Positions 4,961-22,496 of a DNA stretch of 42,745 bases are shown piece by piece. The position numbers and the translations under genes were made by a program. Positions within the stretch are counted from its first letter, which is position 1, and the number at the start of each line of letters is the position of its first letter. Source of the DNA: a virus; the IMG/VR virus record IMGVR_UViG_3300044613_002301, positions 1-42,745 of that record, one strand, 5' to 3'. The notes below the pieces were generated by a model. That model was given only the letters and a program-made list of their open reading frames with translations. It ran no database searches and was not told where the DNA came from.

Positions 4961-4970
4961 TCAAATCCAC

Positions 4971-5562: not shown

Positions 5563-5579
5563 AAGGGCAAGATAATAGA

Positions 5580-5744: not shown

Positions 5745-5745
5745 C

Positions 5746-5776
5746 AGAGTACAGGCAGAAGAACGATGTTCTTTAG
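5746..5776 (+). repeat. Right copy of 31-bp direct repeat
   Basis: Identical to 4930-4960. In this copy the part equal to the end of the upstream gene is no longer translated, while its ATG at 5766 starts the primase. The arrangement is what is expected if an insertion duplicated the former junction of two overlapping genes. Confidence 0.9.
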
Positions 5777-8896: not shown

Positions 8897-9085
8897 ATGA
8901 AAGTGATTTTTGAGATGGGATTAACCCTGTTTGGCATGGGATTCACTACTTCTGGGATAATTCTGGCGGCAGAGAACAAGACTCAGTGGCCTTTGGTTTT
9001 GGTTTTTATTGGGATTCCAGTGCTTTTGCTGGCTTGCCAGTTCGATGACTACGAGGGTTCGCAAAATGAAACCCGCAAGCCCTAG
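8897..9085 (+). CDS. Small two-pass membrane protein
   Basis: A 62-residue protein with two hydrophobic segments, about residues 5-24 (FEMGLTLFGMGFTTSGIILA) and 31-47 (WPLVLVFIGIPVLLLAC), joined by a short polar turn and ending in a charged tail. TAGGAGGG precedes the ATG, a strong ribosome site. It overlaps the polymerase gene start by 20 bp. It could act at the inner membrane, for example in lysis timing or exclusion of other phages, but the sequence gives no specific clue. Confidence 0.55.
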   Translation: MKVIFEMGLTLFGMGFTTSGIILAAENKTQWPLVLVFIGIPVLLLACQFDDYEGSQNETRKP

Positions 9086-10430
9086 TGCCTACAGGCTGAT
9101 GCACGAAGGCAGTCTGGCATTGTGCAAGATGGAATGTGTCGGACTGCCCGTCTGCCGGGAAGAATTATCTCGCGCTAAAGATGCGGTTATTCAGCAAATC
9201 CGCAGCACTGAGCAACAGATGCGGTCGATGGACGAGTACCAGCGACAGCGAAAGAAGTTTGGTATCCGCACTAAGATCGGCTCACGGGAACAGCTTGCAG
9301 ACATTCTGTACAAGGATTTGAACTACCCCGGAATGCAGGTCAACCCGAAGACAGGCAAGATAATTTTTGATGACGAGGTGCTTAATGAAATAGATACTCC
9401 GTACACAAAACTGTTCAAGAAAGTGCAGAAGTTTCATAAGCTAAACAGCACTTACCTTACTGGCATCGAGCGAGAACTGTGCGGAGATCGTGTACATGCG
9501 GTACTCAATACGCATACGGTGACTACTTACCGATCATCGGCAGACAGTCCGAACATCCAGAACTTTCCCATCCGTGATCCTGAGATCGGGCAGATTCTGC
9601 GATCAATCATTCGACCGAAACCGGGAAAGGTGATCGTGGAGATTGATTACTCGACCCTAGAGGTAGTTATAGGAGCTTGTCTGCACGGTGATCCGACTAT
9701 GTCAGAGTATTTGCTGACTGGTTTCGATTTCCATCGAGCCACTGCCCAAGAATGCTTTTTTATGGAGGATGTGCCAAAGCCACTGCGACAACTAGCAAAA
9801 GTGGCTAACTTTAGCCTTATTTACGGCGATTTCTTTGCAGCGATTGCGGCAAAAATGTGGAAGGCAGTAGACGGACTTACGCAAGAGAATTCAGGAGTTG
9901 ATGGTCAGAAAGTATTTGCCCACCTCAATTCTAAAGGAATAAAACGGCTAGGAAACGAGAATGATACTGGCCCAGATACTTTTACCGGCCACATACAAAA
10001 AGTCTGTGACCGCTTTTGGGGGCAACGATTCCCAATTTTTGCTAAATGGCGAAGAGATACTTGGGAGGACTACGCTCGAAAGGGCTATCTGTATACACGA
10101 ACAGGTTTTCGCGTCTGGGGGGTATACAAACGTAACGAAATCCTAAACGTAGAGACTCAGGGATGTGCCTTTCACTGTCTTTTGCGGTCAGTAATCGAGA
10201 TCACCAGACGACTTGAGCAAAGTTCTCTGAAATCAAGATTGGTAGGACAGATTCACGACTCATTGTTGGCTGAGGTTCCCATAGAAGAACTTGACGAGTA
10301 TGTGGGAATGGCGACCGAAGTGATGACTACTTGGCTGAGGTCGCAGTGGAGTTGGATTAAGCTACCTCTCAGTACCGAGACCGAAGTGGGCGACTCATGG
10401 GCTACGAAAGCTCCTTACCATAAAAACTAG
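9066..10430 (+). CDS. Family A (Pol I-like) DNA polymerase, polymerase domain only
   Basis: I place the start at 9066, with GAGGG 8 bp upstream, giving 454 residues. The protein starts in the thumb (YRLMHEGSLALCKMECVGLPV) and has the family landmarks. YRSSADSPNIQNFP lies before motif A, VIVEIDYSTLE (about 189-199). Motif B is RQLAKVANFSLIYG (about 241-254) and motif C is VGQIHDSLLAEV (about 392-403). There is no 3'-5' exonuclease domain; a matching exonuclease with UDG-like domain is encoded separately at 21206-22417. It is followed by an HNH gene. Catalytic Asp residues and motif B Arg/Lys are present, so it should be active. Confidence 0.9.
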   Translation: MKPASPSAYRLMHEGSLALCKMECVGLPVCREELSRAKDAVIQQIRSTEQQMRSMDEYQRQRKKFGIRTKIGSREQLADILYKDLNYPGMQVNPKTGKIIFDDEVLNEIDTPYTKLFKKVQKFHKLNSTYLTGIERELCGDRVHAVLNTHTVTTYRSSADSPNIQNFPIRDPEIGQILRSIIRPKPGKVIVEIDYSTLEVVIGACLHGDPTMSEYLLTGFDFHRATAQECFFMEDVPKPLRQLAKVANFSLIYGDFFAAIAAKMWKAVDGLTQENSGVDGQKVFAHLNSKGIKRLGNENDTGPDTFTGHIQKVCDRFWGQRFPIFAKWRRDTWEDYARKGYLYTRTGFRVWGVYKRNEILNVETQGCAFHCLLRSVIEITRRLEQSSLKSRLVGQIHDSLLAEVPIEELDEYVGMATEVMTTWLRSQWSWIKLPLSTETEVGDSWATKAPYHKN

Positions 10431-10447
10431 ACAAACAGATAACTTTA

Positions 10448-10467
10448 CCATAGAATTATGCCTATGG
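10448..10467 (+). promoter_or_regulatory. Hairpin touching the ribosome site of the second HNH gene
   Basis: CCATAG (10448-10453) and CTATGG (10462-10467) form a perfect 6-bp stem with an 8-nt loop. The last two bases of the stem are the first two of the GGAG ribosome site ahead of the ATG at 10477, so the hairpin can limit translation. Similar hairpins restrain homing endonuclease genes in phage T4 early transcripts. Confidence 0.45.
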
Positions 10468-10476
10468 AGAAAACTT

Positions 10477-11148
10477 ATGGAAAACATACACGGTATTTCG
10501 ATTGATCTGACAGTAAAAGACAGTAAATTTGGTAAGTTGCAGATATTGGGAGCGGCTTTCAAAACTCGCCGCTCCGATTCGCGAACAGACTGGCAGGTAG
10601 TTGCGTCCTGCGAGTGTGGCAACATCAAGTGTTATTACCTAAGAAATTTAGTAACGGGAATGACAACTAGCTGCGGATGCGTTCAGAAAAAACGAGCTTC
10701 CATGGCGAATACTACACATGGAAAACGAAAGTCGCATTTATATGCAGTTTGGAATGCTATGCTCGCAAGATGCCATAACTTAAAAAACAAATCATATAAA
10801 AACTATGGTGGTCGCGGTATATCAGTATGTGACAGATGGAAGTCGTTTGAGAATTTTTATTCTGATATGGGGGACCGGCCCAGTGAGCAGCATACAATAG
10901 ACCGCATCGACAACAACAAAGATTATTGCCCAGAAAATTGTCGATGGGTCACAAGAAATGTGCAAGCCACAAACAAACGCAATAACCGATACTTAGAGTA
11001 CAACGGAAAAACACAAACAGTAAGCCAGTGGGCTAAAGAGTTTGGAATGGGAGCGGCTACATTGAAAAGCAGACTATTGTTAGGATGGTCAGTAGAAAAA
11101 GCGCTCACAGTTCCTGTAAGACCGGTGCGAAAAGCAAAAGGTAAATAG
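10477..11148 (+). CDS. HNH homing endonuclease, copy 2
   Basis: A 223-residue paralog of the HNH proteins at 987 and 22497. Landmarks are CECGNIKCYYL ... TTSCGC, YAVWNAMLARCHN, NYGGRGISVCDRWKSFENF, TIDRIDNNKDYCPENCRWVT and a C-terminal NUMOD-like segment (KTQTVSQWAKEFGMGAATLK ... WSVEKALTVP). It lies directly after the polymerase gene, and a second copy lies directly after the separate exonuclease gene. This is consistent with homing endonucleases having targeted the polymerase locus. A hairpin overlaps its ribosome site. Confidence 0.85.
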   Translation: MENIHGISIDLTVKDSKFGKLQILGAAFKTRRSDSRTDWQVVASCECGNIKCYYLRNLVTGMTTSCGCVQKKRASMANTTHGKRKSHLYAVWNAMLARCHNLKNKSYKNYGGRGISVCDRWKSFENFYSDMGDRPSEQHTIDRIDNNKDYCPENCRWVTRNVQATNKRNNRYLEYNGKTQTVSQWAKEFGMGAATLKSRLLLGWSVEKALTVPVRPVRKAKGK

Positions 11149-11151
11149 ATC

Positions 11152-11754
11152 ATGGGCAGCGAAGCAACCGTATTCAAAAACGTAGATCGATTACCAAAGA
11201 TCATAGGGCTTAACGGCCCCATAGGTTCGGGGAAGGACACGGTCGCTTCGTACTTAGGTATTTACTTTACCTACGAAATCATGGGGTTTTCGGACCCGGT
11301 GTACGAAAACCTATACCGGCTCAATCCCGGTATCGTAGTGGGACATAACAAAGTGGAGTACCTCCAAACCATTGTAAACACGCACGGATGGGACTACGCC
11401 AAACGCCGGTATTCTATCGTTCGCGGGATGCTTCGCACAGAGGGCACTGAGAACGGGAGGGAGATACATGGTAGCGATTGCTGGGTGAAGGTCGCCCAAA
11501 GGCGGGTGGAGAACTCCAACAAGCCTCGGTTTGTGTTCCGGGATGTTCGGTTTCCGGAGGAAGTAGATTTTATTCGTTCCCTGAACGGCGAAATCTGGAG
11601 GATCGAAGGTCGAGTGTCGGACGAAGTTCAGAATCTTCCCAACCATATTTCGGAACAGCATGTCATTGAACCCGACAAAATCATCGTAAATGACGGAACA
11701 TTGTCGCGTCTGTACCATCGCGTCAACACCCTACTTTCTTGGTATCTGGAGTAA
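11152..11754 (+). CDS. Deoxynucleoside monophosphate kinase-like protein
   Basis: A 200-residue P-loop protein with GLNGPIGSGKDTVA at about residues 19-32. The P-loop with Asp after the Lys is characteristic of phage dNMP kinases and related NMP kinases. Later segments (FRDVRFPEEVDFIRSLNGEIWRI) fit the conserved DxR..E pattern in the dNMP kinase group, where the Arg helps bind phosphate. The enzyme would raise dNMPs to dNDPs for phage DNA synthesis. It sits between the second HNH gene and the clamp loader. Other P-loop kinases cannot be excluded. Confidence 0.7.
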   Translation: MGSEATVFKNVDRLPKIIGLNGPIGSGKDTVASYLGIYFTYEIMGFSDPVYENLYRLNPGIVVGHNKVEYLQTIVNTHGWDYAKRRYSIVRGMLRTEGTENGREIHGSDCWVKVAQRRVENSNKPRFVFRDVRFPEEVDFIRSLNGEIWRIEGRVSDEVQNLPNHISEQHVIEPDKIIVNDGTLSRLYHRVNTLLSWYLE

Positions 11755-11756
11755 TT

Positions 11757-12665
11757 ATGGGCCTCTATCAAAAATATCGACCTACGCTGCTCTCCGAGAT
11801 CATCGGACAGCCTACGGCAGTTCAGCAACTACGGAAAATGGATGCAGAGGATTCCGTGCCTCACGCAATCCTTATGTCCGGGCCTAGCGGGTGCGGGAAG
11901 ACCACGGCGGCTCGGATTGTTGCAAAACTTGTGGATGCAGCGCCGACTGGCGTTACCGAAGTAAACTGCGCTCTCAGTAACGGGGTCGATGTCATTCGAG
12001 AGATCGAATCCAAGATGCACTTGAAACCGCTCGGAGGGAAAGCCCGGGTTTATATCCTGGACGAATTTCATGCGGTCACTCCGGCAGGCCAGCGCGGAAT
12101 GCTTAAATTGCTGGAGGATACACCGGCACACATCTACTTCATTCTTTGCACCACCAACCCGGAAAAACTGGAAAAACCGGTTGTGACCAGATGTGTCAAC
12201 ATCAAATTCAATAATCTATCTGTATCAGAACTAAAGAAGCTTATACAGAGGGTAGCGACCGAAGAACAGATTCATCCCGGCAAGATGCCCGATCCGGCAG
12301 TAATTGCGACGGCGGCAGATGGCAGTGCTAGGAAAGCCTTGGTTTTATTGGAACAGATCATCGCTTCTGATTCTGCGGCAGACTGGCATGAAATTTTGGA
12401 AACCGGGGTCCAGGCTACCGAGTATTTTGACATGGTTCGCGATCTTTACGCTGGCCGGTTCACCATGAGCAAATGGGGACCGAAGCTCAAGGAACTCGGA
12501 GAGAACGATGTAGAGGGTTTGCGGATGTGCATCTTGTCTTACGGGGCTACGATTTTGTGCGGCGGCAGAAACGAGGATGCCATGCGAATCATGGAGTTAT
12601 TCACGGAACCGTTTTTTTCGTCAAAAAAACCCGGATTTATTTTGAATCTTGCGAAGTGTCAGTAG
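11757..12665 (+). CDS. Sliding-clamp loader ATPase (DnaX/RFC-like)
   Basis: I start at 11757, where GGAG precedes the ATG, giving 302 residues. It opens with MGLYQKYRPTLLSEIIGQPT, the near-universal start of DnaX and RFC subunits. Walker A is MSGPSGCGKTTAAR (about 45-58), Walker B is VYILDEFHAV (about 96-105), and the SRC-like arginine-finger motif reads VVTRCVNIKF. Sensor 2 lies around DGSARKALVLLEQI. It opens the ring clamp (gene at 20196) and loads it onto primed DNA. It is much shorter than bacterial DnaX. Confidence 0.9.
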   Translation: MGLYQKYRPTLLSEIIGQPTAVQQLRKMDAEDSVPHAILMSGPSGCGKTTAARIVAKLVDAAPTGVTEVNCALSNGVDVIREIESKMHLKPLGGKARVYILDEFHAVTPAGQRGMLKLLEDTPAHIYFILCTTNPEKLEKPVVTRCVNIKFNNLSVSELKKLIQRVATEEQIHPGKMPDPAVIATAADGSARKALVLLEQIIASDSAADWHEILETGVQATEYFDMVRDLYAGRFTMSKWGPKLKELGENDVEGLRMCILSYGATILCGGRNEDAMRIMELFTEPFFSSKKPGFILNLAKCQ

Positions 12666-12700
12666 TAGACTAGGTTAAGTCCCAACCAACGGAGGTAACA

Positions 12701-13123
12701 ATGGACGTAGACATCACAGTAGACCGCCACAAGCTCGATGAGCAGCTTGAGGCTATTCCAGGGGACGTACTCTCTTGGTCGCGGCAGGCAGCTATCCAAG
12801 TGGAAACGCTGCAACGCGCTGAAAACAATTTGAAGTTAGTAGAAGCCCGGTTATCCATCGCGATCCGGCAGAATCCGCTCGATTACGGTTTTGCTAAGGT
12901 TACTGAGGATTTGGTCAAGGCCATTATCCTGACGCAACCGGATTACGTCGAAGCTCTCGACCACGTTGCAGAAGCCCGTGCAGAGTTGACCGCTACCCGT
13001 GGGGTTGTGGATGCTCTTGAGATCAAGCGATCCAGTTTGAAGTACCTTGCCGAGTTGACGGTAGCGGGGTATCTTGGTTCCATGTCCGTCAATCCTCGCA
13101 ACCCATCAGGAGTTAAGAGCTAA
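12701..13123 (+). CDS. Possible UvsY-like recombination mediator
   Basis: A 140-residue, mostly helical protein with the strong ribosome site GGAGGT. Its length, helical composition, and order of segments (LSWSRQAAIQVETLQRAENN, LSIAIRQNPLDYG, KVTEDLVKAIILTQPDYVEA, RSSLKYLAELTVAGY) resemble T4 UvsY and a group of phage proteins annotated as recombination mediators. It is immediately upstream of the gp32-like SSB and in the same operon as a RecA/UvsX-like protein, the partners UvsY would link. Resemblance is by pattern only, so the call is tentative. Confidence 0.4.
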   Translation: MDVDITVDRHKLDEQLEAIPGDVLSWSRQAAIQVETLQRAENNLKLVEARLSIAIRQNPLDYGFAKVTEDLVKAIILTQPDYVEALDHVAEARAELTATRGVVDALEIKRSSLKYLAELTVAGYLGSMSVNPRNPSGVKS

Positions 13124-13124
13124 C

Positions 13125-14192
13125 ATGCGTATTTCATCATCTAAGACCCGCCAAGAAAATAAAGCCAACAACACGGTCGGCGTTCTTCGCGTTCCGCAGG
13201 GAATCGACCTTTGGAAGGTCGAAAAGCCCGGGATGTACCAGATGGTCATTCTTCCGTACAAGGTTCCGGACGGGGCGAAACACCCCTACGCAAAACCTGG
13301 GGAATTCCATTACAGCCGCGATTACTACATCCACCGCAACTTTGGTCCGTCCGGTAAAGACTACGCGATCTGCCCTCGGTTGACTGTCGGCGCTCCTTGC
13401 CCGATCTGCGAAGCGATCAAGCAACAGCTTGCCGCTGGCAACATCGACAAGGACACCGCTAAGAAGATGTCTGCGTCTCACAGGACGCTGTACAACGTCT
13501 GGTTGCCTAAAGAAAACAAGGTCGTACTGTTCGACACCAGCTTCTTCGGATTTACCGAAGTTCTGAATGCGGCAGTCGATGCCAAGGTGCAGATTCCAGG
13601 CATGGAGTGGGCCGATTACTTCGCGGACCCTGTTGAGGGTTCTACGCTCTACGTCCAGTACGTCGAGCAACCCCTTCCTTCGCCCGGCGCAAAGTTTTGC
13701 AAGGCGATTTCCATCGACTTTGTACAGCACAAAGAAGCGATTCCTGCCGAGATTCTGTCTCAGGCAGTATCTCTCGACTTGTCGCTAGTCGTCGAAAACT
13801 ACGATGTCCTCAAGAATCGATTCTGGGACACCGAGCCAGTCGCTACGGAAAGCGCACAGGAGCAGGAAACTCCTGTCACAAGGACGCAGGTTGCAGTGAC
13901 GCAACCTCAGACACCGAAGTCTGCACCGGCTGAACCTCCTGCGGTAGCCCCAAAGGTGACTGGATTCACCAAGGGACAGATTCTGCATCATAAGGATATG
14001 GGGGAGGTCAGCTTTGTTAAATCCAGCGATGGATCAGCAACGGTTCTGAACAGCCAGGACGACCCAGTCAAAGTCAAGATGTCCGATCTCCAGACACAGC
14101 CTTGGCCGGATAGTCAATCAGCATCCCTATCCGAGCCTGTTGCAGTGTCCAACGGCGGGGACGATGCCTGGGATTCTGGCTGGAAGGATTAG
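13125..14192 (+). CDS. gp32-like single-stranded DNA-binding protein
   Basis: A 355-residue protein with a basic N-terminus (MRISSSKTRQENKANN), a central OB-like core with a zinc-binding cluster (CPRLTVGAPCPICEAI at about residues 83-98), and a long Pro/Gln-rich linker from about 245. It ends in the acidic tail GGDDAWDSGWKD. Basic N-terminus for cooperativity, zinc core and acidic tail for protein contacts is the T4 gp32 plan. It would coat single-stranded DNA during replication and recombination. It is longer than gp32, mainly in the C-terminal linker, which contains a small extra beta domain (VTGFTKGQILHHKDMGEVSF). Confidence 0.75.
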   Translation: MRISSSKTRQENKANNTVGVLRVPQGIDLWKVEKPGMYQMVILPYKVPDGAKHPYAKPGEFHYSRDYYIHRNFGPSGKDYAICPRLTVGAPCPICEAIKQQLAAGNIDKDTAKKMSASHRTLYNVWLPKENKVVLFDTSFFGFTEVLNAAVDAKVQIPGMEWADYFADPVEGSTLYVQYVEQPLPSPGAKFCKAISIDFVQHKEAIPAEILSQAVSLDLSLVVENYDVLKNRFWDTEPVATESAQEQETPVTRTQVAVTQPQTPKSAPAEPPAVAPKVTGFTKGQILHHKDMGEVSFVKSSDGSATVLNSQDDPVKVKMSDLQTQPWPDSQSASLSEPVAVSNGGDDAWDSGWKD

Positions 14193-14294
14193 CAAAAAGC
14201 TTGTCGGGTAGCGCCCGACTGATCTGGTGGATGCGGTGAAGCACCAGTAAGAATGGGCCGTAGCTTTCGCGATCACGGCAGATAGACCGCACAA
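14193..14294 (+). other. Untranslated, hairpin-rich stretch
   Basis: No credible gene is present. Three short perfect stems can be seen: GTCGGG/CCCGAC (14203-14219, 5-nt loop), CTGGTG/CACCAG (about 14224-14247) and GCCGT/ACGGC. None is followed by a T-run on the plus strand, so I do not call a terminator. The stretch leads into the first tRNA-like element and may be part of a structured transcript. Confidence 0.35.
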
Positions 14295-14419
14295 GGTTCT
14301 GCGGCGTGGACAGCGACACGCGGAGAGCTATGCAACGCCTAAACGCATAGACGCAACGGATTCGGAACAGATCGAGTACCGCCAAGTATAGCCAGCAGGT
14401 GCAATTCCCGCCAGAACCA
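14295..14419 (+). ncRNA. tRNA-like element 1 (125 nt, abnormal anticodon region)
   Basis: GGTTCTG (14295-14301) and CAGAACC (14412-14418) form a perfect 7-bp acceptor stem, with an A as discriminator. GCGT (14304-14307) and ACGC (14318-14321) form a D stem two bases inside it. GCAGG, loop TGCAATT and CCCGC (14395-14411) form a T arm that abuts the 3' acceptor strand exactly as in tRNA, with one A-C mismatch. The middle 73 nt are far too long for an anticodon arm plus variable loop. They hold a 6-bp stem CTATGC/GCATAG with an 11-nt loop and no U33-type anticodon loop. A leader element begins 3 nt after it. Probably not a decoding tRNA. Confidence 0.55.
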
Positions 14420-14422
14420 TTG

Positions 14423-14464
14423 AGACGAACGCTCGGATTCACCGAGCCGAAAGGAAAGAGGTAA
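14423..14464 (+). promoter_or_regulatory. Hairpin leader element, copy 1
   Basis: These 42 bp are identical to 14778-14819. They contain the hairpin GCTCGGattcaCCGAGC (14431-14447) followed by the ribosome site GGAAAGAGG, just before the ATG at 14467. The preceding AGACGAACGC is shared with copies 3 and 4. Confidence 0.8.
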
Positions 14465-14466
14465 AC

Positions 14467-14772
14467 ATGAGTAACGACAGTAATGAGACTTCGGTGCAAT
14501 CCGTTGTTCGTCGGCGAATTGTCCAGGCGAGCTTGTGCTTGCGATTTTACACATCGGCAGGGTGGACACGCGAGGAGGTTCGGAAACTGCTGCGAGACGA
14601 CAAACGGTTGGCGCGTGTGTGTCCTCGGTACTTCGATGAACGCGACAAGTTGGGACAAGGAAGTTTTGAACTGGAGGATGGGCTACCACACGACGATTGC
14701 GATTACTTCGCAGTGTACGGAGCGGGCGAACCATTTTCAGCGGAGGCGTTGGCGTTGCACGACGTAGTGTGA
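14467..14772 (+). CDS. Unknown small protein of the accessory island
   Basis: A 101-residue protein. Its first 17 residues (MSNDSNETSVQSVVRRR) correspond to those of the next gene (MSETNEASVQSIVRRP), and the DNA there is nearly identical. After that the two proteins are unrelated. Residues 20-55 look helical (ASLCLRFYTSAGWTREEVRK), and the C-terminus is acidic (DGLPHDDCDYFAVYGAGEP). It follows leader copy 1. No family is recognised; the shared start and different body suggest a cassette with exchanged coding content. Confidence 0.6.
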   Translation: MSNDSNETSVQSVVRRRIVQASLCLRFYTSAGWTREEVRKLLRDDKRLARVCPRYFDERDKLGQGSFELEDGLPHDDCDYFAVYGAGEPFSAEALALHDVV

Positions 14773-14777
14773 TCGTC

Positions 14778-14819
14778 AGACGAACGCTCGGATTCACCGA
14801 GCCGAAAGGAAAGAGGTAA
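14778..14819 (+). promoter_or_regulatory. Hairpin leader element, copy 2
   Basis: Identical over 42 bp to 14423-14464, 355 bp away. The hairpin arms are GCTCGG (14786-14791) and CCGAGC (14797-14802). It begins 5 bp after the stop of the preceding gene and carries the ribosome site for the ATG at 14825. Confidence 0.8.
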
Positions 14820-14824
14820 CAAAA

Positions 14825-15130
14825 ATGAGCGAGACGAATGAGGCTTCGGTGCAATCCATTGTTCGTCGTCCGTGGGATTTTGTGTGCAAGTGGTACGGAG
14901 TGGATGAGATTCACGATTTCATTACACGGTCACGACTATTGCGGTCAGTCGGTGATTTACCGCAAGTTCCAGAGGACGTTTATAGTAGAGAGTTTGCCGA
15001 GTTTCTGACCGAGCAGTATAGGCTTGCGATGCGAAAGGGTGCGGAGTTGGCTGTTGCGGAAATGAGGTCGATGCCATGCGTCCACGATCTTGTGAAACAG
15101 CACAATGAAAATACGACGACTGAGTTTTAG
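14825..15130 (+). CDS. Unknown small protein of the accessory island
   Basis: A 101-residue protein whose N-terminus (MSETNEASVQSIVRRP) is shared with the preceding gene. The body (WDFVCKWYGVDEIHDFITRS ... LTEQYRLAMRKGAELAVAEM) is mainly helical and different. The start is fixed by the duplicated leader. It has no recognisable catalytic motif. The next leader begins 2 bp after its stop. Confidence 0.6.
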   Translation: MSETNEASVQSIVRRPWDFVCKWYGVDEIHDFITRSRLLRSVGDLPQVPEDVYSREFAEFLTEQYRLAMRKGAELAVAEMRSMPCVHDLVKQHNENTTTEF

Positions 15131-15132
15131 TC

Positions 15133-15162
15133 AGACGAACGCACAGGATAACCCAGTGCGAG
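15133..15162 (+). promoter_or_regulatory. Hairpin leader element, copy 3
   Basis: These 30 bp are identical to 15533-15562, exactly 400 bp away. CGCAC and GTGCG form a 5-bp stem around an AGGATAACCCA loop, followed by GAGGAG as ribosome site for the ATG at 15171. The first ten bases (AGACGAACGC) are shared with copies 1 and 2. Confidence 0.75.
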
Positions 15163-15170
15163 GAGTAAAC

Positions 15171-15401
15171 ATGGACAACGAAAAACAACAGACCGAGCAC
15201 TTGGGTTCATCCGATTGTTCGTCGGATGATTGGGATTCCTCGGATGACGACGTCATTGACACCGAGTGTGACCATTGCGGAGAAATGAAGCGATGTTGTC
15301 TAACAAACGATCCGTATATGAGAGAAATACATCCAGAAGAGGAAAATCCGGAGTCGTACTGGTGTTATCAATGTTGGGACATCCGACACGGAGACATATA
15401 G
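15171..15401 (+). CDS. Small acidic zinc-ribbon protein, paralog of the 5371 product
   Basis: A 76-residue protein. Residues 1-20 carry the island N-terminal motif (TEHLGSSDCSS), encoded by DNA identical to that of the 15577 gene over 32 bp (15194-15225 versus 15594-15625). An acidic Ser/Asp run follows, then two Cys pairs (ECDHCGEMKRC, YWCYQCWDIRHGD) separated by DPYMREIHPEEE. The C-terminal 50 residues match the cassette protein at 5371. It is therefore a chimera of the island N-terminus and the zinc-ribbon body. Zinc binding is likely; function is unknown. Confidence 0.7.
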   Translation: MDNEKQQTEHLGSSDCSSDDWDSSDDDVIDTECDHCGEMKRCCLTNDPYMREIHPEEENPESYWCYQCWDIRHGDI

Positions 15402-15408
15402 ACACAAC

Positions 15409-15529
15409 CGATCGGCGGCGTGATGGGAACACGCGACCCGTGGCGATGGCGACTAGGGGCCACACACGGCGATAAAACGAAAGCGAGTTGCGCATAGCTT
15501 GCTAGCAGGTTCGAATCCTGTCCGATCGA
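15409..15529 (+). ncRNA. tRNA-like element 2 (121 nt, abnormal anticodon region)
   Basis: CGATCGG (15409-15415) pairs perfectly with CCGATCG (15522-15528), followed by A. The D stem is GCGT/ACGC (15418-15421, 15431-15434), the same as in element 1. The T arm is textbook: GCAGG, loop TTCGAAT, CCTGT (15505-15521), abutting the acceptor. Between D and T arms are 70 nt instead of about 22-45. They include a 5-bp stem GTGGC/GCCAC with a 14-nt loop where the anticodon arm should be, and a variable-arm-like stem GCGAG/CTTGC (15483-15502). No anticodon can be assigned. Leader copy 4 starts 3 nt after it, as in element 1. Confidence 0.65.
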
Positions 15530-15532
15530 TTA

Positions 15533-15562
15533 AGACGAACGCACAGGATAACCCAGTGCGAG
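15533..15562 (+). promoter_or_regulatory. Hairpin leader element, copy 4
   Basis: Identical over 30 bp to 15133-15162, with the same CGCAC/GTGCG stem. It lies 3 nt after tRNA-like element 2 and before the ATG at 15577; GAAAGGAAAA serves as ribosome site. Confidence 0.75.
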
Positions 15563-15576
15563 AAAGGAAAACGACA

Positions 15577-15849
15577 ATGGCAGAAGACAGTAACGAGCAC
15601 TTGGGTTCATCCGATTGTTCGTCGGGGAATTTTGAACACATTGAAGTCCGTCCGCCGGATTGGGTGCTGAACGCAATTTCCGAGCGATGCGTCACGCATC
15701 ACAACGCTTGCGATTGTAGGGAGTATCGGTTTGCAAAGATGCAGCAAGCTTTGATTCGAATCATGATTTGGGCAGAGCATGACGCTATCAGTGGGGAAAA
15801 AGCTATGGAACACATTTCTAGGAAGTGCCATGAAGCACTAGAGGACTAG
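15577..15849 (+). CDS. Unknown small protein of the accessory island
   Basis: A 90-residue protein. It starts with the shared motif (NEHLGSSDCSS) and then has its own body: PPDWVLNAISERC, HHNACDCREYRF, and a helical C-terminus (IRIMIWAEHDAISGEKAMEH). The HHNACDC segment may bind a metal. The start is supported by the leader and the aligned N-terminus of the 15171 gene. I do not recognise the family. Confidence 0.6.
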   Translation: MAEDSNEHLGSSDCSSGNFEHIEVRPPDWVLNAISERCVTHHNACDCREYRFAKMQQALIRIMIWAEHDAISGEKAMEHISRKCHEALED

Positions 15850-15960
15850 AAATCAAAACGTATTATTACCTTGGCACGGGTGGGGTGTATCTTTTACTTG
15901 GAGGCCCCGAATGTGCTGGTGAGCGAAGAGTGCCGGGTTCCCATTGACCCTAACCTTCGA
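15850..15960. other. Gap with no gene seen
   Basis: The 208-bp gap between the 15577 and 16058 genes holds no open frame I trust. This first part has no clear signal; the second part holds a candidate promoter and a terminator, listed separately. Confidence 0.4.
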
Positions 15961-15966
15961 TATAAT
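15961..15966 (+). promoter_or_regulatory. Candidate -10 box upstream of the secreted-protein gene
   Basis: TATAAT at 15961-15966 is a perfect -10 consensus. No good -35 box lies 16-18 bp upstream, so an activator or another sigma factor may be needed. A 6-bp inverted repeat, TGTCCG/CGGACA, begins just downstream near the expected transcription start. Confidence 0.35.
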
Positions 15967-16002
15967 GGTGTCCGTTCTCCTTTCGGACAGCCGTTATTGA
16001 CA

Positions 16003-16028
16003 GCCGGGAAAGACCGGCATTTTTCTTT
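16003..16028 (+). terminator. Rho-independent terminator or attenuator
   Basis: GCCGGgaaagaCCGGC (16003-16018) is followed by ATTTTTCTTT, the form of an intrinsic terminator. It lies between the -10 box at 15961 and the gene at 16058, so it may end transcripts of the island or attenuate a short leader RNA. Confidence 0.6.
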
Positions 16029-16057
16029 CCTTTAGCCCTATAGAAAGGGACTACGGT

Positions 16058-16309
16058 ATGAAGAGGTTTATTTGGAGTGTTGTTTTGGTGCTTAGTGCCT
16101 CGCTCGGAGCGCAGGCACAGGATTGCCAGAACGGAAAATGCGTGCTTCCACGGGTTCAATCAGCCGTATCTGCTACCGCAGAAAAAGCTGTAAAACTTGT
16201 GGAAATCCCTGTGAAAGCGACTGCACAAGTGGCTCAGAAGTCTGTAAGATTTGTTGCAAGACCCGCCCGCAAGTTCGGCACAGTGTTTCGCAGGGTCCGC
16301 TGTCGGTAG
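16058..16309 (+). CDS. Small basic exported protein with signal peptide
   Basis: An 83-residue protein. Residues 1-20 (MKRFIWSVVLVLSASLGAQA) form a clear Sec signal peptide, with likely cleavage after AQA. The mature part starts QDCQNGKCVLP, so two Cys could form a disulfide outside the cytoplasm, and continues as a basic helix rich in Ala, Val, Lys and Arg (VQSAVSATAEKAVKLVEIPV). It ends RRVRCR. The CQNGxC opening after the signal is a style I know from many planctomycete proteins. An exported phage protein this small could modify the envelope or affect superinfection, which is inference only. AAAGGG precedes the ATG. Confidence 0.65.
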   Translation: MKRFIWSVVLVLSASLGAQAQDCQNGKCVLPRVQSAVSATAEKAVKLVEIPVKATAQVAQKSVRFVARPARKFGTVFRRVRCR

Positions 16310-16318
16310 AACGATACT

Positions 16319-16393
16319 TCCCCTATAGTTTAATCCAGGAAAAACGCGGCACGATTCGTGGCCGATTTGATGGTTCAACTCCATCTAGGGGAA
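16319..16393 (+). ncRNA. tRNA-like element 3 (75 nt, normal length, poor anticodon arm)
   Basis: TCCCCTA (16319-16325) pairs with TAGGGGA (16386-16392), with discriminator A at 16393. T8 and A9 are present. The D arm is GTTT/AAAC with loop AATCCAGGAA, including the GG pair. The variable loop is 5 nt. The T arm is GATGG, TTCAACT, CCATC (16369-16385), with every T-loop signature base. The anticodon arm (16347-16363) has two mismatched pairs, and the loop CGATTCG lacks U33; a one-base shift gives ACGATTC with one G-G mismatch. No CCA is encoded. It could be a decayed or highly unusual tRNA. Confidence 0.6.
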
Positions 16394-16414
16394 CTTAATT
16401 CAGGAGGGTAATCA

Positions 16415-16969
16415 ATGATTATTTACTTAGACGTAGACGGGGTTCTCGCAGACTGGGTGACAGGGATTCAGGTTTCAGCGGAAATCGATCCTTCTGTCTG
16501 GGATACCGTGGGCCACGGTTTACTACCCACGGAACATCAAGCAAAGCTAGATGCGGTAATGAGTACACAGTCATTTTGGACTGGGCTAGCATTGTATCCC
16601 TGGGCAAATGATCTTGTGGACTGGGCATCGACTTGGGGAAAGGTAGTGTTTTGCACACAGCCGTTTAGCTCGCCAGAGTGCTTACATGGTAAGTACCAGT
16701 GGCTAAACGATCACTTCGGGGCCACGATGGAGAACATCGTGTTCATCAAGCAAAAATGGCTACTCGCACATCCGACTTGCCTTTTGCTGGATGACAACGT
16801 CGAGAACTGTAACCGGTTTCAGTGGCGAGGCGGTCATTCGATTGTCTTCCCACAACCCTGGAACAGTGCGGGCATCCCATTGCATGATTCCGAGATGCGT
16901 GAAAAATCCCTGGAACAAATCAGAACATCTATTCGTAACATCTCTAGCATTGTCAGGTGGTATCAATGA
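16415..16969 (+). CDS. HAD-family 5'(3')-deoxyribonucleotidase-like phosphatase
   Basis: A 184-residue protein that starts with the HAD nucleophile motif YLDVDGVLADW (residues 4-14; DxDG with both Asp). Motif II is VVFCTQPFS (Thr in place), a Lys lies near FIKQKWLL, and the acidic motif is LLLDDNVENC. The fold and length fit the phage and bacterial NT5C-like nucleotidases that remove phosphate from dNMPs. It could adjust nucleotide pools alongside the dNMP kinase. AGGAGGG precedes the ATG. The stop overlaps the RecA-like start (ATGA). Confidence 0.75.
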   Translation: MIIYLDVDGVLADWVTGIQVSAEIDPSVWDTVGHGLLPTEHQAKLDAVMSTQSFWTGLALYPWANDLVDWASTWGKVVFCTQPFSSPECLHGKYQWLNDHFGATMENIVFIKQKWLLAHPTCLLLDDNVENCNRFQWRGGHSIVFPQPWNSAGIPLHDSEMREKSLEQIRTSIRNISSIVRWYQ

Positions 16970-18030
16970 AAAAAGCAATGAAGACATTGGAAGAAGGCGC
17001 GAAACCAAAAGAAGCATCTCGCTTGTACTTGAGCCTCGGGTGTCCTTTACTTAACCTTGCCGTATCGGGCGACTGGCGTAAAGGAATGATTGCAGGGACA
17101 TACTGCTTTTATGTCGGGGACTCATCCAGTGGGAAGACGCTCGCGACCTTGAGTATGCTCGCAGAGGCGGCTAACGACCCGAATTTCGACGAATACGAGT
17201 TGTGGCACATCAACGGCGAAGTGGGGAGCTTCTTTGATTTCGAGGTTTTCTTCGGGAGCAAGGCGGCCAAACGAATACAGGTGATGACACCCTCTAACGG
17301 CCAGCCGATGCTTCTTGAAAAAGTCTATGACTTCCTTGACAAGAAGTTGAGTGAAGGCAAGAAGATCGTAGCGGTCTTGGATTCAATGGATAGCTTTTCT
17401 ACGGAATCCCGGGAAGAGCTTATTCAGGAAAACGCAAAGCGCCGGGAGCAGGGTAAAGATACCCAGGGGTCTTACGGTGACGGCAAGGCCAAACTGAACT
17501 CTGAGCGTCTCCCCAGACTTGTTCAAGGAATTGAGCAGTCTGGCAGCATCGTAGTCTCGATATCTCAGACCCGGGACAACATCGGCGGCGGTCCTTATGC
17601 CCCCGCTAAAACGCGATCCGGGGGCCACGCCATCAAGTTCTACGCCAGTCTTGAAATCTGGACATCCCCTGGGAAAGTCATTACCAAGGAATACAAAGGT
17701 AAAGACCGGACCATTGGCATTAAACCGGTCTTTCGGATTAAGAAAAACCGAATCAATGGCAAAGAACGAACTGTGACGATCCCGATTCTACCTGACTTCG
17801 GCATTGATGCTCTTGGTGCGGCGGTCGATTACTTAATCGAAGAAAACGCATGGACAGTGTCAGGAGGCCGAATCGTTAGCGATCTATACGACAAAAGCTA
17901 TCACCGCGAGGTACTGGTCAGCAAAATTGAAGAAGATAATCGGGAAACCGAACTGTTTGACAAGATGCAAGCAGTTTGGGATGACATCGAAAACGCCATT
18001 CGCATTGAAAGAAAGAAGAGGTATTCGTGA
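16966..18030 (+). CDS. RecA/UvsX-like recombinase
   Basis: I use the ATG at 16966, with AGGTGG upstream and an ATGA overlap, giving 354 residues; a GTG three codons earlier is less likely. Walker A is VGDSSSGKTLA (about 50-60). Walker B is IVAVLDSMDSF (about 135-145). A conserved segment IVVSISQTRDNIGG is followed by SGGHAIKFYASLEIW, equivalent to the RecA L2 region. It would form filaments on single-stranded DNA for strand exchange. SSB, UvsY-like, gp46/47-like and resolvase genes in the same operon make a T4-style recombination set. Confidence 0.85.
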   Translation: MKKAMKTLEEGAKPKEASRLYLSLGCPLLNLAVSGDWRKGMIAGTYCFYVGDSSSGKTLATLSMLAEAANDPNFDEYELWHINGEVGSFFDFEVFFGSKAAKRIQVMTPSNGQPMLLEKVYDFLDKKLSEGKKIVAVLDSMDSFSTESREELIQENAKRREQGKDTQGSYGDGKAKLNSERLPRLVQGIEQSGSIVVSISQTRDNIGGGPYAPAKTRSGGHAIKFYASLEIWTSPGKVITKEYKGKDRTIGIKPVFRIKKNRINGKERTVTIPILPDFGIDALGAAVDYLIEENAWTVSGGRIVSDLYDKSYHREVLVSKIEEDNRETELFDKMQAVWDDIENAIRIERKKRYS

Positions 18031-18266
18031 TTATGCAAAGTAATCTGTTGCTTGATGCTGCCGAGGCGTTATCGGAAGCGGTGGACACGCTTGACCATCG
18101 ACTGTCGATCTGTCCTACCCTGCTCTACACTGAGAAGGAGGAGATAAGGAGGCAAGTGCGGAAAGAACTAAGTAAGCTCAGAAGCCACTACAACGAAATG
18201 ACTGAGCAGATTCAACGAATCGACGACCTGCGTAAACAAATTGTAGAAAAGAATACTAATGGCTGA
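18027..18266 (+). CDS. Small coiled-coil protein
   Basis: A protein of 79 residues from GTG at 18027, or 77 from ATG at 18033. The GAAGAGG ribosome site (about 18015-18021) fits the GTG spacing better. It is entirely helical (DAAEALSEAVDTLDHRL ... IRRQVRKELSKLRSHYNEM) with heptad-like hydrophobics. It overlaps both neighbours. No function is assigned. Confidence 0.5.
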   Translation: MIMQSNLLLDAAEALSEAVDTLDHRLSICPTLLYTEKEEIRRQVRKELSKLRSHYNEMTEQIQRIDDLRKQIVEKNTNG

Positions 18267-19089
18267 ACGGTACGCCATCCTAGATATGATGAACCTTGCG
18301 TACCGATCTTGGTATGCTTTGAATTTCACTTACAAAGGAGCCGCGCCACGGCTTGATTTTGTATTTTCCAGCCTTATACGCACATGCAAGAAACTGGAAA
18401 ACGATCTGTGTGCTGACACTATGGTTTTCTGCTTCGACGGTGGTTATGATTTCCGTAAAAGCATCTATCCAGAATACAAGCAAAACCGAAAGACCGAGGA
18501 ACTGAGAGAGGAACTAAAACTCAATCGTCAGTTATTCCATTCGGAAATCGAGTTGCTTCGGAAGTTGCATTTACCGTCAATCGGTGCTGCTAACGTCTTT
18601 TGGGCTAGTGGATTTGAGGCAGACGATCTAATTGCATCCTGTGTCAGAAATTTGGATGCCGCTAAAAAAGTGTACATCGTTTCCACGGACGAGGACTTGT
18701 ACCAGTTGATCGAGGGGACTCGCGTAGTGGTCTACAAACCTAGCACACAAACCGTGTTCTCTGAGGAAGATTTTAGGATGGCGTTTTCTGACTTACCTCC
18801 TTGCCTATACGCGAGTGCCAAGGCATGGGCCGGATGCAGTTCTGACGGCATACCAGGATTGCCCAGGGTCGGCATGAAAACTGCTTGTAAGTTCGTAAAC
18901 GGCCATAACAGAGGGCGAGAAGATTGGTGGGACCATCTCGACATCTACAACCGTAACATACAGCTAGTCAAGCTTCCTGCCCCGGGTACACCGAAATGCG
19001 TTCCTGTCCCACAGGAAACTCCGATAGCCTGGGACGAACTTTTGAAAAACATAGAGAGATCATCCACTCCAAGAGGAATGAAGAAATGA
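18259..19089 (+). CDS. 5'-3' exonuclease / flap endonuclease (FEN)
   Basis: A 276-residue protein with the PIN-like FEN core. It has ILDMMNLAYRSW (first Asp), VFCFDGGYDFRKSIYPEYK (second Asp and the basic helix), FEADDLIASC (Glu-Ala-Asp-Asp pattern), VYIVSTDEDLYQL, and the helix-hairpin-helix segment SSDGIPGLPRVGMKTACKFV. Such enzymes remove RNA primers and 5' flaps. The separate family A polymerase in this phage lacks its own 5' nuclease, so this gene supplies it. It overlaps the coil gene by 8 bp and the next by 4. Confidence 0.9.
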   Translation: MAERYAILDMMNLAYRSWYALNFTYKGAAPRLDFVFSSLIRTCKKLENDLCADTMVFCFDGGYDFRKSIYPEYKQNRKTEELREELKLNRQLFHSEIELLRKLHLPSIGAANVFWASGFEADDLIASCVRNLDAAKKVYIVSTDEDLYQLIEGTRVVVYKPSTQTVFSEEDFRMAFSDLPPCLYASAKAWAGCSSDGIPGLPRVGMKTACKFVNGHNRGREDWWDHLDIYNRNIQLVKLPAPGTPKCVPVPQETPIAWDELLKNIERSSTPRGMKK

Positions 19090-19388
19090 ACAAACGTGAC
19101 AAAGTGCTAAAACGCCGGGATATTTTGCGAAAGGTCCGAAAACAAGAACGCGACCAGCAACTGGCTGATCGTAAGGAATTTGCAAAGGCAAACCCAACAC
19201 CGCGACTGCCCAAGACAAGAAATCGAAGATTTCGGACAAAAATACAGATGGTCGAGAACGAGCAGGCGATACTGATGCAGATGACAGGCCAGCCAGAGAT
19301 ATCGCAAAGTGCGATTCGGTCTGAAATCGACCATTACAAAAATGACCCCGCTGTAAAGGCGGCGGTAGAGAGGCGACGAAATGACTGA
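19086..19388 (+). CDS. Unknown basic protein
   Basis: A 100-residue protein from the ATG at 19086, which overlaps the FEN stop. It is very basic in its first 60 residues (KRRDILRKVRKQERDQQLAD, PRLPKTRNRRFRTK) and ends in a helical segment (SQSAIRSEIDHYKNDPAVKA). It is probably nucleic-acid-binding or structural in the replisome, but I recognise no family. Confidence 0.5.
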   Translation: MNKRDKVLKRRDILRKVRKQERDQQLADRKEFAKANPTPRLPKTRNRRFRTKIQMVENEQAILMQMTGQPEISQSAIRSEIDHYKNDPAVKAAVERRRND

Positions 19389-19692
19389 ACCTAAATTTTT
19401 CAAGATCACAGAGCCAACTGAGGCTGATCTGATTGAACTAGACAACTTGTTGCACAAGGTCATTGAAGGCGAGAAGAACAATCCTCTTGGAGAGTTTTTC
19501 AAGGAAGCCTACGATTTATCAACCGAATCTCCCGAATTTGCGTTGTACTTCTGGCAGTTGGTTGCCGTAGGCATGTTGAAGCAGGTCAAGGATGCGGAGA
19601 ACTATGCGATGCTGGTCACGCAGATGGCTCAAGCCGCATTGGAATCGGTAGGAATGGAAAACCCTATCGAGGCTCAAGAATCCAATGGGTAG
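19381..19692 (+). CDS. Unknown helical protein
   Basis: A 103-residue acidic, helical protein (ADLIELDNLLHKVIEGEKNN, FALYFWQLVAVGMLKQVKDA, MLVTQMAQAALESVGM). It overlaps the preceding gene by 8 bp and the nuclease gene by 8 bp, so it is part of the same transcriptional unit. No motif is recognised. Confidence 0.5.
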   Translation: MTEPKFFKITEPTEADLIELDNLLHKVIEGEKNNPLGEFFKEAYDLSTESPEFALYFWQLVAVGMLKQVKDAENYAMLVTQMAQAALESVGMENPIEAQESNG

Positions 19693-20212
19693 TTCCAAGG
19701 GTTCTGCCTGGGAGCGTGAGTTTGCAGTAATGCTTTCTCTCTGGTGGTCCGAGGGTAAAGAAGACGATTTGTTCTGGCGTGTACTCGGCTCAGGGGGACG
19801 CGCCACTAATCGCGGGAAAAAAGGCAAATCGACGGCTGGCGGCTATGGTGACATAACCGCCACGGATCACCGGGGTCAGGCATTGCTAAACCTCTGTTGC
19901 TTTGAATTGAAAAGAGGATACAACAGTGCAACTGTCCAGGACTTACTAGACAAGCCGAAGAATGCTACTTACGCAAGCTTTCTGGATCAGACTAAGCGAG
20001 CGGCATCTTTGGCGGGTGTTCCCTACTGGTGTCTAGTACACAAACGGGACAGGAGACATGCGTTAGTCCTTACGAACGTCAAAGTCAGACCGGATACCTG
20101 TTGCATACTTACAGATGACTGGCATCCCATAAAACTGATGCGGCTAAAGGACTGGCTGTGTATCGAGACATTGAATTTTTTTAGGTCACTGAACCATGAA
20201 AATAGATCGTAA
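19685..20212 (+). CDS. PD-(D/E)XK nuclease, Holliday-junction-resolvase-like
   Basis: A 175-residue protein with the order seen in archaeal-type resolvases and related phage nucleases: an N-terminal Glu helix (GSAWEREFAVMLSLWW), FWRVLGSGGRATNRGKKGKS, the GGYGDITATD motif with its Asp, then CCFELKRGYNS with the E-x-K pair. A helix after the core (YASFLDQTKRAASLAGVPYW) fits the fold. It should cut branched DNA from recombination or replication. It overlaps the clamp gene by 17 bp. The family is clear, the exact substrate inferred. Confidence 0.75.
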   Translation: MGSSKGSAWEREFAVMLSLWWSEGKEDDLFWRVLGSGGRATNRGKKGKSTAGGYGDITATDHRGQALLNLCCFELKRGYNSATVQDLLDKPKNATYASFLDQTKRAASLAGVPYWCLVHKRDRRHALVLTNVKVRPDTCCILTDDWHPIKLMRLKDWLCIETLNFFRSLNHENRS

Positions 20213-21206
20213 AGAACTGCTTCGCGTTCTCGAATCCTGTCATCCAGGGATCGCCAGAACTGAAAACGTAGAGCAGAGCGATTGTTACACGTTTGTCCCA
20301 GGCGGGGTGAGTACTTACAACGAAGAGATTTGCTGTTTTCATGCAGTGCCTACGCAGTTTAACTGCGCTGTCCCGGCCCGGCCCATCATTGACACTTTGC
20401 GTAAGCTGTCGGAGGACGAGGTTGACATAGAACTTGTCGAAGGACGGCTGATGATTAAGTGCCCCGGGATGCGACGAATCGGGATCACGGTTCATCAAGA
20501 CGTTGTGATGAACTCGGAGAACGTGGAACGTGCCCGGACTTGGATAGACGTACAACCGGCGTTTTCTGACGGTTTGGCTATGGTGGCAGACTGTGCCGCC
20601 AAGGAAGCAGAACAGTTTGCCTGGACATGCGTAGAGATCAGTCCAAAAGGACTGCAAGCCACCGATGGGTATCAGGCAATGCGATACAAGGTTGAGTGCC
20701 CAGTCGAGCGGTCTTTTCTGATACGCCGGGAGTCCTGTACTGCGGTTGCAGGGCTTGGCGTTGCCGCGATCCATATCGGAGACGACTGGTTTGGCATGAA
20801 GACCTATACCGGGTTGGAAGTGTACGTCAGGAAGTACACCGACGAATTCCCCGACTTGTCGGAGGTTTTCAATGCGGAGTGCGTTTCTAGCTTACGCTTC
20901 CCTCCCGGTCTTCTCGACGCTACTCAAAAAGCCCTTCCGTTCTTAGCGGACACTTCTACCGGCAAGCAGATCGTCATCCGGCTAAAGCCCAAGAAGATGA
21001 TGATTCATGCTAGTAATATGAGCGGGTTCTACGAAGAGATTCGAGACATCGATTACGAGGGGCCTTCCCGGTCATTTGCCTTGAACCCCAAGTACATCCA
21101 GAATCTTTTGAAATACGACACCCCTTGCCACCTGGGGCAGAACACGGTAAAGATTCGCGGAGACAACTTCTCCTTGATCGCTAGTCTGGAATCGGCGGTG
21201 ATGTAA
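20196..21206 (+). CDS. DNA polymerase sliding clamp (DnaN-like)
   Basis: A 336-residue protein whose length fits a three-domain beta clamp. The domain-two landmark ISPKGLQATDGYQAMRYKV matches the ATDGHRLA-type motif of DnaN. Repeated sheet-helix patterns (LDATQKALPFLADT, VIRLKPKKMMIHASNMSGF, NTVKIRGDNFSLIASL) fit clamp domains. It would tether the polymerase and is loaded by the gene at 11757. DnaN-type clamps are uncommon among phages that carry gp32/UvsX-like proteins, which makes the replisome mosaic. Confidence 0.75.
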   Translation: MKIDRKELLRVLESCHPGIARTENVEQSDCYTFVPGGVSTYNEEICCFHAVPTQFNCAVPARPIIDTLRKLSEDEVDIELVEGRLMIKCPGMRRIGITVHQDVVMNSENVERARTWIDVQPAFSDGLAMVADCAAKEAEQFAWTCVEISPKGLQATDGYQAMRYKVECPVERSFLIRRESCTAVAGLGVAAIHIGDDWFGMKTYTGLEVYVRKYTDEFPDLSEVFNAECVSSLRFPPGLLDATQKALPFLADTSTGKQIVIRLKPKKMMIHASNMSGFYEEIRDIDYEGPSRSFALNPKYIQNLLKYDTPCHLGQNTVKIRGDNFSLIASLESAVM

Positions 21207-22417
21207 TGCCACTACTAACTAAACCGCAGATAACAAAACAGTTATCTGTGTTACCGAACTGCAATGCTTGTGGGGCTGCGGCAAAATGTCGCAGCCCTAA
21301 GCTTACATGGCCTGGAAAACAGGCTGATATCGTCTTTGTTGTGGACGGTGTCGAGCAGGATTCTCCGAGCGGGTTGCAGGATAGCCCCTATAATCGCTTA
21401 GACGGCCTCTGTAAGCGTGTTGGCATCGAGATGCGGGATTATGCCCTAGTACCCGCTTCTGCGTGTTTTGGGGCCTCTGAGGAGGCTTGGCGGCACTGCC
21501 AGCCTTTGATGGCCTCTGAGCTAAGTAGACTGCGTCCCCGGGTTATCATTCCGTTCGGGTCCAAGGCTACGCAAAGTGTCGTGGGCCGGTTCTGGCAGCG
21601 ACCGGCAGAACTGTTTGATAGATGGTACGGCTATCAGATTCCTTGCCAACAGCTTAATGCGTGGATTTGCCCGGTGGGGTCCGTGGCCCCTCAAAAGGGG
21701 CAGATGGACATCAGCCAGATGTGGGCGTACCGTTGGCTACGGGATGCGGTGCGTCTGACCGGTCGCCCGTGGGACCACGGGGTTCCGGACATCAAGGATT
21801 GCGTCACGGTTCTTACCGATCCTGCGAAGATTCAAGAATTTCTAGGATTTGCCAAGAACCTACCGATTACTTCGTTAGATTGGGAAACTCTCGGCTTAAA
21901 ACCAGAAAATAGTTCAATGCGGATATGGTCAGCCGCGATTGCCTACAGAGACGAAGACGAAATCGTGAGTGTAGCGTTCCCTGTGTTCGAGGATTGCCAT
22001 GATGCTCTCCGGGCATATCTAACTGGACCGGGGAGGATAATCGCGCACAACATGAAATTTGAAGCAAGGTGGGCGAAGCAAAAACTAGGTGTTTTTCCGG
22101 CTAATTTGTACTGGGATTCCATGCAGGCGGCGCATATAGAAAACCCTATGAGCGGGGTTACGGGTTTGAAGTTTCAGGCATTTGCTAGGCTGGGTGTTCC
22201 TTACTTTGCCGATGAAGTAGAGGGGTACTTCAACCAGACTGACTCTAACACCCCGAATAACATTGCCGCCTCGCCGCTTGTGCCCTTGCTGACCTATAAC
22301 GGGATTGACTCTGCCGTCGAACTGATATTGGCTAGCATCCAGATGAAACAAGCAGATTTGATTAGGCAACATTTTGTGCCGGAGAAGTATTTACCGAGCA
22401 ACTTGCATTCCGCATAA
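21206..22417 (+). CDS. UDG-like domain fused to 3'-5' exonuclease (detached N-terminal part of a Pol I-type polymerase)
   Basis: A 403-residue protein. Residues 15-165 resemble a family 4-type uracil-DNA glycosylase fold with a Cys cluster (CNACGAAAKC) but a changed catalytic loop (VDGVEQDSPSG), so it is probably structural. Residues 215-395 are a DnaQ-like exonuclease: Exo I SLDWETLGL, Exo II IIAHNMKFEARW (the usual Asp after Phe is Glu) and Exo III YNGIDSAVEL. UDG-like, exonuclease and polymerase in one chain is the SPO1-type layout. Here the chain ends just after the exonuclease, and the polymerase part is at 9066-10430. An HNH gene follows. Confidence 0.75.
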   Translation: MPLLTKPQITKQLSVLPNCNACGAAAKCRSPKLTWPGKQADIVFVVDGVEQDSPSGLQDSPYNRLDGLCKRVGIEMRDYALVPASACFGASEEAWRHCQPLMASELSRLRPRVIIPFGSKATQSVVGRFWQRPAELFDRWYGYQIPCQQLNAWICPVGSVAPQKGQMDISQMWAYRWLRDAVRLTGRPWDHGVPDIKDCVTVLTDPAKIQEFLGFAKNLPITSLDWETLGLKPENSSMRIWSAAIAYRDEDEIVSVAFPVFEDCHDALRAYLTGPGRIIAHNMKFEARWAKQKLGVFPANLYWDSMQAAHIENPMSGVTGLKFQAFARLGVPYFADEVEGYFNQTDSNTPNNIAASPLVPLLTYNGIDSAVELILASIQMKQADLIRQHFVPEKYLPSNLHSA

Positions 22418-22433
22418 GTATGCTGTAGAATAC

Positions 22434-22468
22434 GAAAAGCCGAGCGGCTGGAACCGCATCGGCTTTTC
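22434..22468 (+). terminator. Strong hairpin, probable terminator
   Basis: GAAAAGCCGA (22434-22443) pairs perfectly with TCGGCTTTTC (22459-22468), and GCGG/CCGC extends the stem inward with one unpaired A, giving 14 bp. The T-run lies in the 3' arm, as in bidirectional intrinsic terminators. It separates the exonuclease gene from the HNH gene at 22497, so that gene may have separate expression. Confidence 0.65.
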
Positions 22469-22496
22469 TAACCACTCAAGTTTGCGAGGAACTATC

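Follow-up and report, generated by a model that had tools for sequence, protein, structure and literature searches.

A probable two-subunit family A replicase in uncultivated tailed phages, its polymerase and exonuclease genes apparently dispersed by relocation of a clamp-exonuclease pair

In bacterial DNA polymerase III, the polymerase (alpha) and the proofreading exonuclease (epsilon) of the core, the clamp, and the clamp loader are separate subunits. Among phages, the order uracil-DNA glycosylase (UDG), exonuclease, and polymerase is found on a single chain in gp205 of Pseudomonas phage PaBG (PMC7412058). Replication enzymes in two pieces also occur. The T4-like Aeromonas phages 25 and 44RR have a split family B gp43 whose products, 43A and 43B, co-purify and polymerise, and the nrdA of Aeh1 is a case of genes-in-pieces (PMC2988022). 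The OM43 phages MEP401 and MEP402 carry a family A polymerase in two ORFs, as do most members of their group (PMC10580990). Earlier work already covers intact UDG-exonuclease-polymerase chains, split polymerases (43A/43B, MEP401/402), and genes for nucleases next to those for polymerases. In the literature searched, no description was found of a family A replicase divided into an exonuclease gene and a polymerase gene, or of a dispersed form of it, which is weak evidence of novelty.

The DNA presented here is positions 1-42,745 of the IMG/VR virus record IMGVR_UViG_3300044613_002301 (termed the window, meaning this whole stretch of 42,745 nucleotides). This linear record is probably partial, with relatives of up to 69 kb. 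Tape-measure and connector genes in the window identify a tailed phage, a virus of bacteria. The window also contains a tRNA-Ile (GAT) gene (16319-16394), short repeated segments among small ORFs (14391-15631), and, at 4930-5776, a 785-bp stretch (4961-5745) between exact 31-bp direct repeats. This stretch is absent from the relative L001 and holds a small zinc-ribbon-like ORF (5371-5562) that resembles another at 15105-15401. The replication genes considered below are as follows:

9066-10430, plus strand: POL, a family A DNA polymerase domain with no exonuclease, 454 aa (Pfam DNA_pol_A, E 1.5e-51)
11152-11754, plus strand: deoxynucleoside monophosphate (dNMP) kinase, between POL and the clamp loader
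11739-12665, plus strand: clamp loader AAA+ subunit
20196-21206, plus strand: DnaN-like sliding clamp (phrog_947), the stop of which overlaps the EXO start (TGATG)
21206-22417, plus strand: EXO, 403 aa, with a four-cysteine UDG-like domain, a 3'-5' exonuclease, and a clade-specific C-terminal tail ("QHFVPEKYLP")

The initial annotation held that POL begins where EXO ends in a Pol I chain, and that the two pieces lie 11 kb apart in reversed order. Both observations stand. EXO matches positions 547-826 and POL positions 835-1237 of one chain in PHROG 17; because these spans are consecutive, the two proteins abut with almost no gap, and POL lies upstream of EXO on the same strand. Another complete polymerase, which the annotation had named as evidence against its reading, is not present in the record, which is linear and probably partial: neither a second PF00476 nor any PF00136 or PF07733 was found there. 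Searches of the window and eight relatives turned up no further family of replicative polymerase.

The catalytic motifs A, B (the O helix), and C of POL are intact (DYSTLE, RQLAKVANFSLIYG, and HDS), as in family A polymerases, and its place between the DnaB and clamp loader genes is that of the ancestral order. In most relatives (152 loci), the O helix has an extra residue between the lysine and YG, giving a 15-letter motif. Canonical Pol I spacing is seen in the window, L001, and L107-L111, though these are nested among the 15-letter forms.

Relatives were retrieved from IMG/VR by single-protein and alignment queries; the close relatives are all metagenomic and may be incomplete. The classified loci comprise 16 with a fused UDG-exonuclease-polymerase gene, 130 with adjacent genes in the order EXO then POL (133 when three with slightly wider gaps are included), and about 33 with dispersed genes; some contigs are held twice (e.g., L056/L171, L061/L157, and L092/L130), so that these are not counts of independent viruses. 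L002, labelled dispersed by script, is a 24% distant match and was disregarded as a false case. Fewer than 100 bp separate EXO and POL in 66 of the 133 adjacent loci, and the reading frames overlap in 55 (in L022 and L023, an ATGA contains both the stop of EXO and the start of POL). In 45, at least 350 bp lie between the two genes and are filled by diverse genes. The comparison shows that the two-gene split between exonuclease and polymerase is common in this phage group and indicates that it is old. At least six changes between fused and separate states occur on the POL tree, which fits a functional complex of POL and EXO; the trees are quick maximum-likelihood trees with midpoint rooting, and whether the fused or the split form is ancestral is not fixed by them.

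The usual gene order, seen in adjacent and fused forms, is primase, DnaB, clamp, EXO, POL, clamp loader, SSB, RecA, exonuclease, RusA, SbcC, and SbcD. The clade of the window has primase, DnaB, POL, dNMP kinase, clamp loader, SSB, RecA, exonuclease, RusA, clamp, EXO, SbcC, and SbcD. Comparison with L063, L092, L071, and L010 identifies the clamp-EXO pair as the moved block, POL being in place; a move of the C-terminal piece (POL), which the annotation had implied, is rejected on this gene order. Twelve further records have POL upstream of EXO on the same strand, about 9-12 kb apart, with one copy of each. Both trees unite the dispersed members in one group (SH-aLRT 93 on the POL tree and 97 on the EXO tree). 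In the EXO tree, this group also contains one unassigned EXO fragment, most likely that of L044, and on the POL tree its nearest neighbours are the adjacent-gene lineages L063 and L092. With one dispersed group on both trees, relocation of the clamp-EXO pair appears to have happened once, in the clade's ancestor, and the two halves appear to share a history. Descent of POL and EXO from unrelated polymerases, the other finding that would have told against the annotation, is rejected, as the concordant trees place both in the same clade.

The DnaB-POL gap vacated by the clamp-EXO pair is occupied by a LysR-like regulator (8026-8883; Pfam HTH_1, phrog_3736). SbcC is also divided between two genes, which lie on either side of SbcD (23147-24214, 24187-25104, and 25430-26029), the C-terminal ATPase lobe being encoded after SbcD. 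The N-terminal half of SbcC ends with a zinc-hook-like CxxC (CPSCNRPL), 8 residues from the stop, and almost every relative whose gene is complete has a CxxC near the end of this half, the fused-polymerase phages included.

EXO scores weakly against the Pfam families UDG and DNA_pol_A_exo1, and a search with its family profile matches type-4 UDG structures (1vk2) at E 2.7e-29 and, at E 4e-7, the exonuclease of the Klenow fragment. The exonuclease residues D225, E227, N282, E286, Y364, and D368 are invariant across the family, which points to an exonuclease of the Pol I type, with glutamate in Exo II where aspartate is usual. The Fe-S cysteines C19, C22, C87, and C98 are also invariant. The UDG catalytic motifs GEAPG and HPS are kept in L005, L007, and L008 and are missing from the window and its clade; the domain is therefore classed as UDG-like rather than as an active family 4 uracil-DNA glycosylase. 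Because the four cysteines stay in the clade while the motifs are gone, the domain is probably structural or DNA-binding and inactive as a UDG. The tail that follows Q379 has 20-28 residues in the dispersed clade (median 26, n=24), compared with a median of 10 in the adjacent forms (n=129), and in both sub-clades a leucine comes after a stretch with aromatic residues (HFVPxKYLP; FWxxxLP). Since the 24 tails all come from one clade, they represent one evolutionary event rather than 24, and a p-value for the length difference means little. A function as a dock or tether to POL or to the clamp is hypothesised.

The HNH genes and the regions associated with them are:

987-1673, plus strand: HNH0, a third phrog_374 HNH gene, near a SNF2-like helicase gene and not adjacent to a polymerase gene
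10477-11148, plus strand: HNH1, a free-standing phrog_374 HNH gene directly after the POL stop
21777-22395, plus strand: divergent tract of EXO, about 620 bp, ending at the HNH2 insertion (54-79% identity to L003 per 100 bp)
22396-23206, plus strand: HNH2 insert, absent from L003
22497-23213, plus strand: HNH2, a free-standing phrog_374 HNH gene, with its likelier start at ATG 22497 (called as 22374-23213 from TTG 22374)

The annotation described paralogous HNH genes, one after each polymerase piece. The two do belong to one family, with 38% identity between them, but the presence of HNH0 (38-42% identity among the three) makes the pairing of HNH and polymerase genes less exclusive than first thought. 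A promoter-like site (TAGACA-17-TAGAAT, 10428-10456) lies ahead of HNH1; the promoter scan called none of its own for HNH2. Of the clade contigs, 8 have an HNH gene at the junction after POL and about 14 have nothing there; in 2, a putative DNA methyltransferase gene takes the place of the HNH gene (L113, after 1518; L115, after 1868). HNH1 sits between intact genes. The HNH gene after POL in L001 matches HNH2 DNA in part and HNH1 DNA in part, which suggests exchange among these HNH genes.

At the junction of EXO and SbcC, an HNH gene is found in one of 25 loci, that of the window alone. L003, which is 92-95% identical to the window over 16 kb, lacks exactly 22396-23206; there, EXO and SbcC overlap at an ATGA that holds the stop of the first gene and the start of the second. 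The blocks flanking the divergent tract are mostly 92-100% identical to L003. Over the divergent half of the EXO protein, other clade members are slightly more similar to L003 than to the window, so the window's version of EXO is the likelier import. A divergent flank as the trace of co-conversion during homing is established for T4-type endonucleases (PMC2988022), and the tract at 21777-22395 resembles such co-conversion. By its family match, empty site, and divergent flank, HNH2 is a candidate free-standing HNH homing endonuclease. Since HNH1 lies between intact genes, the HNH2 site is empty in L003, and most of the clade has no HNH gene at either site, these genes appear to be secondary; those beside POL and EXO would have arrived independently, after the split and the relocation.

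The annotation had assigned the breakage and rearrangement of the polymerase gene to homing nucleases, and the HNH genes could since have been lost from most relatives. Nuclease genes are known at exchange boundaries (PMC10448857), and single members do have HNH genes at or near breakpoints (between RusA and the clamp in L043, between EXO and SbcC in the window, and upstream of POL in L045 and L110), as well as the co-conversion-like tract beside HNH2. A causal role is nevertheless quite unlikely. The comparison with relatives for HNH insertion sites, which the annotation had proposed, finds the same split boundary in the 133 adjacent loci with an HNH gene between EXO and POL in just one, and many pairs overlap by a few bases; this does not fit a genes-in-pieces arrangement, in which a nuclease gene would lie between the two pieces and the sister lineage would have the gene uninterrupted. 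The twelve other relocated records mostly have no HNH gene at either site. The contents of the junction after POL differ from relative to relative, that between EXO and SbcC holds an HNH gene in the window alone, and L003, from which HNH2 is cleanly missing, keeps the relocated order. That the arrangement reflects a chimeric or misassembled contig, or parts joined by splicing, is barely credible: although the window is a single metagenome contig and no near-identical contig covers both genes, the occurrence of POL upstream of EXO in twelve other records argues against misassembly, and the local gene contexts at both sites recur in L001 and L003 with 92-98% identity. POL and EXO each have their own start and stop, and splicing is rejected because no Rfam intron is matched within the window.

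An unlikely alternative of a different kind is that EXO has left proofreading for end trimming in the recombination and repair cluster (RecA, exonuclease, RusA, and SbcCD), leaving POL to replicate unproofread. EXO now lies between RusA-clamp and SbcC-SbcD, its UDG catalytic motifs are lost, and its rate covariation with POL does not stand out (partial r 0.30 in a distance-matrix test, no stronger than 0.32 for EXO-SSB and 0.36 for POL-clamp loader). Against this, the exonuclease active-site residues are conserved, EXO is found in 13 of 13 clade records searched and goes together with the clamp, no proofreading exonuclease besides EXO was identified, and relatives interconvert fused and separate forms.

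The arrangement is probably a two-subunit family A replicase that acts in trans with the clamp and clamp loader, was dispersed once by relocation of the clamp-EXO pair, and acquired HNH genes later. That POL and EXO work together in trans is the likeliest reading: POL would copy DNA and EXO, with its probably inactive Fe-S UDG-like domain and its 3'-5' exonuclease, would proofread, both using the phage clamp and clamp loader. In this phage group, the chain is usually encoded by two adjacent genes divided between the exonuclease and polymerase domains; in the clade of the window, the clamp-EXO pair would then have moved once, about 10 kb downstream, to a site between RusA and SbcC, while POL stayed. 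The conserved tail of 20-28 residues may tether EXO to POL or the clamp. Free-standing HNH genes would later have entered the short junctions after POL and EXO, probably by homing. A more elaborate proposal, a Pol III-like family A replicase in which a separate proofreader with a dead Fe-S UDG and a new docking tail is co-expressed with the clamp, not with the polymerase, and recruited through the clamp, is offered tentatively.

Split phage polymerases have been known one by one; here, a large group of uncultivated phages has the polymerase and the proofreading exonuclease as stable separate genes. With its fused, adjacent, and dispersed forms, the group makes it possible to test how proofreading stays coupled in a replicase divided between two proteins. 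The locus is also a counter-example to the view that a split gene with a nuclease gene next to it was always split by that nuclease.

The domain order of EXO plus POL is that of SPO1 gp31, Mardecavirus KF4_065, Edwardsiella phage ZHS_59, and PaBG gp205, and the order clamp, fused polymerase, clamp loader in the cultured Vibrio phage KF4 and Edwardsiella phage ZHS is as in the adjacent and fused relatives. In contrast to the single polypeptide of PaBG, SPO1, KF4, and ZHS, the window has two genes 11 kb apart, with EXO after POL and the UDG motifs lost. As with 43A/43B and the Aeh1 nrdA, which still work, the replication enzyme of the window is divided between two polypeptides, and a free-standing nuclease gene lies close by; however, 43A/43B is a family B polymerase whose adjacent pieces have an insert between them, whereas the window has a family A polymerase split at a domain boundary, and its relatives mostly have no nuclease gene between the halves. 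In MEP401 and MEP402, the split falls inside the polymerase domain and the pieces are adjacent, with one small ORF between them, whereas those of the window are dispersed. Like the homing endonuclease genes of PMC10448857, the HNH genes of the window lie beside DNA polymerase genes, vary in occupancy, and have a divergent flanking tract, but their family (phrog_374) is different and homing is here putative. Compared with DNA polymerase III, the polymerase of the window is unrelated (family A), and the likeness is organisational only.
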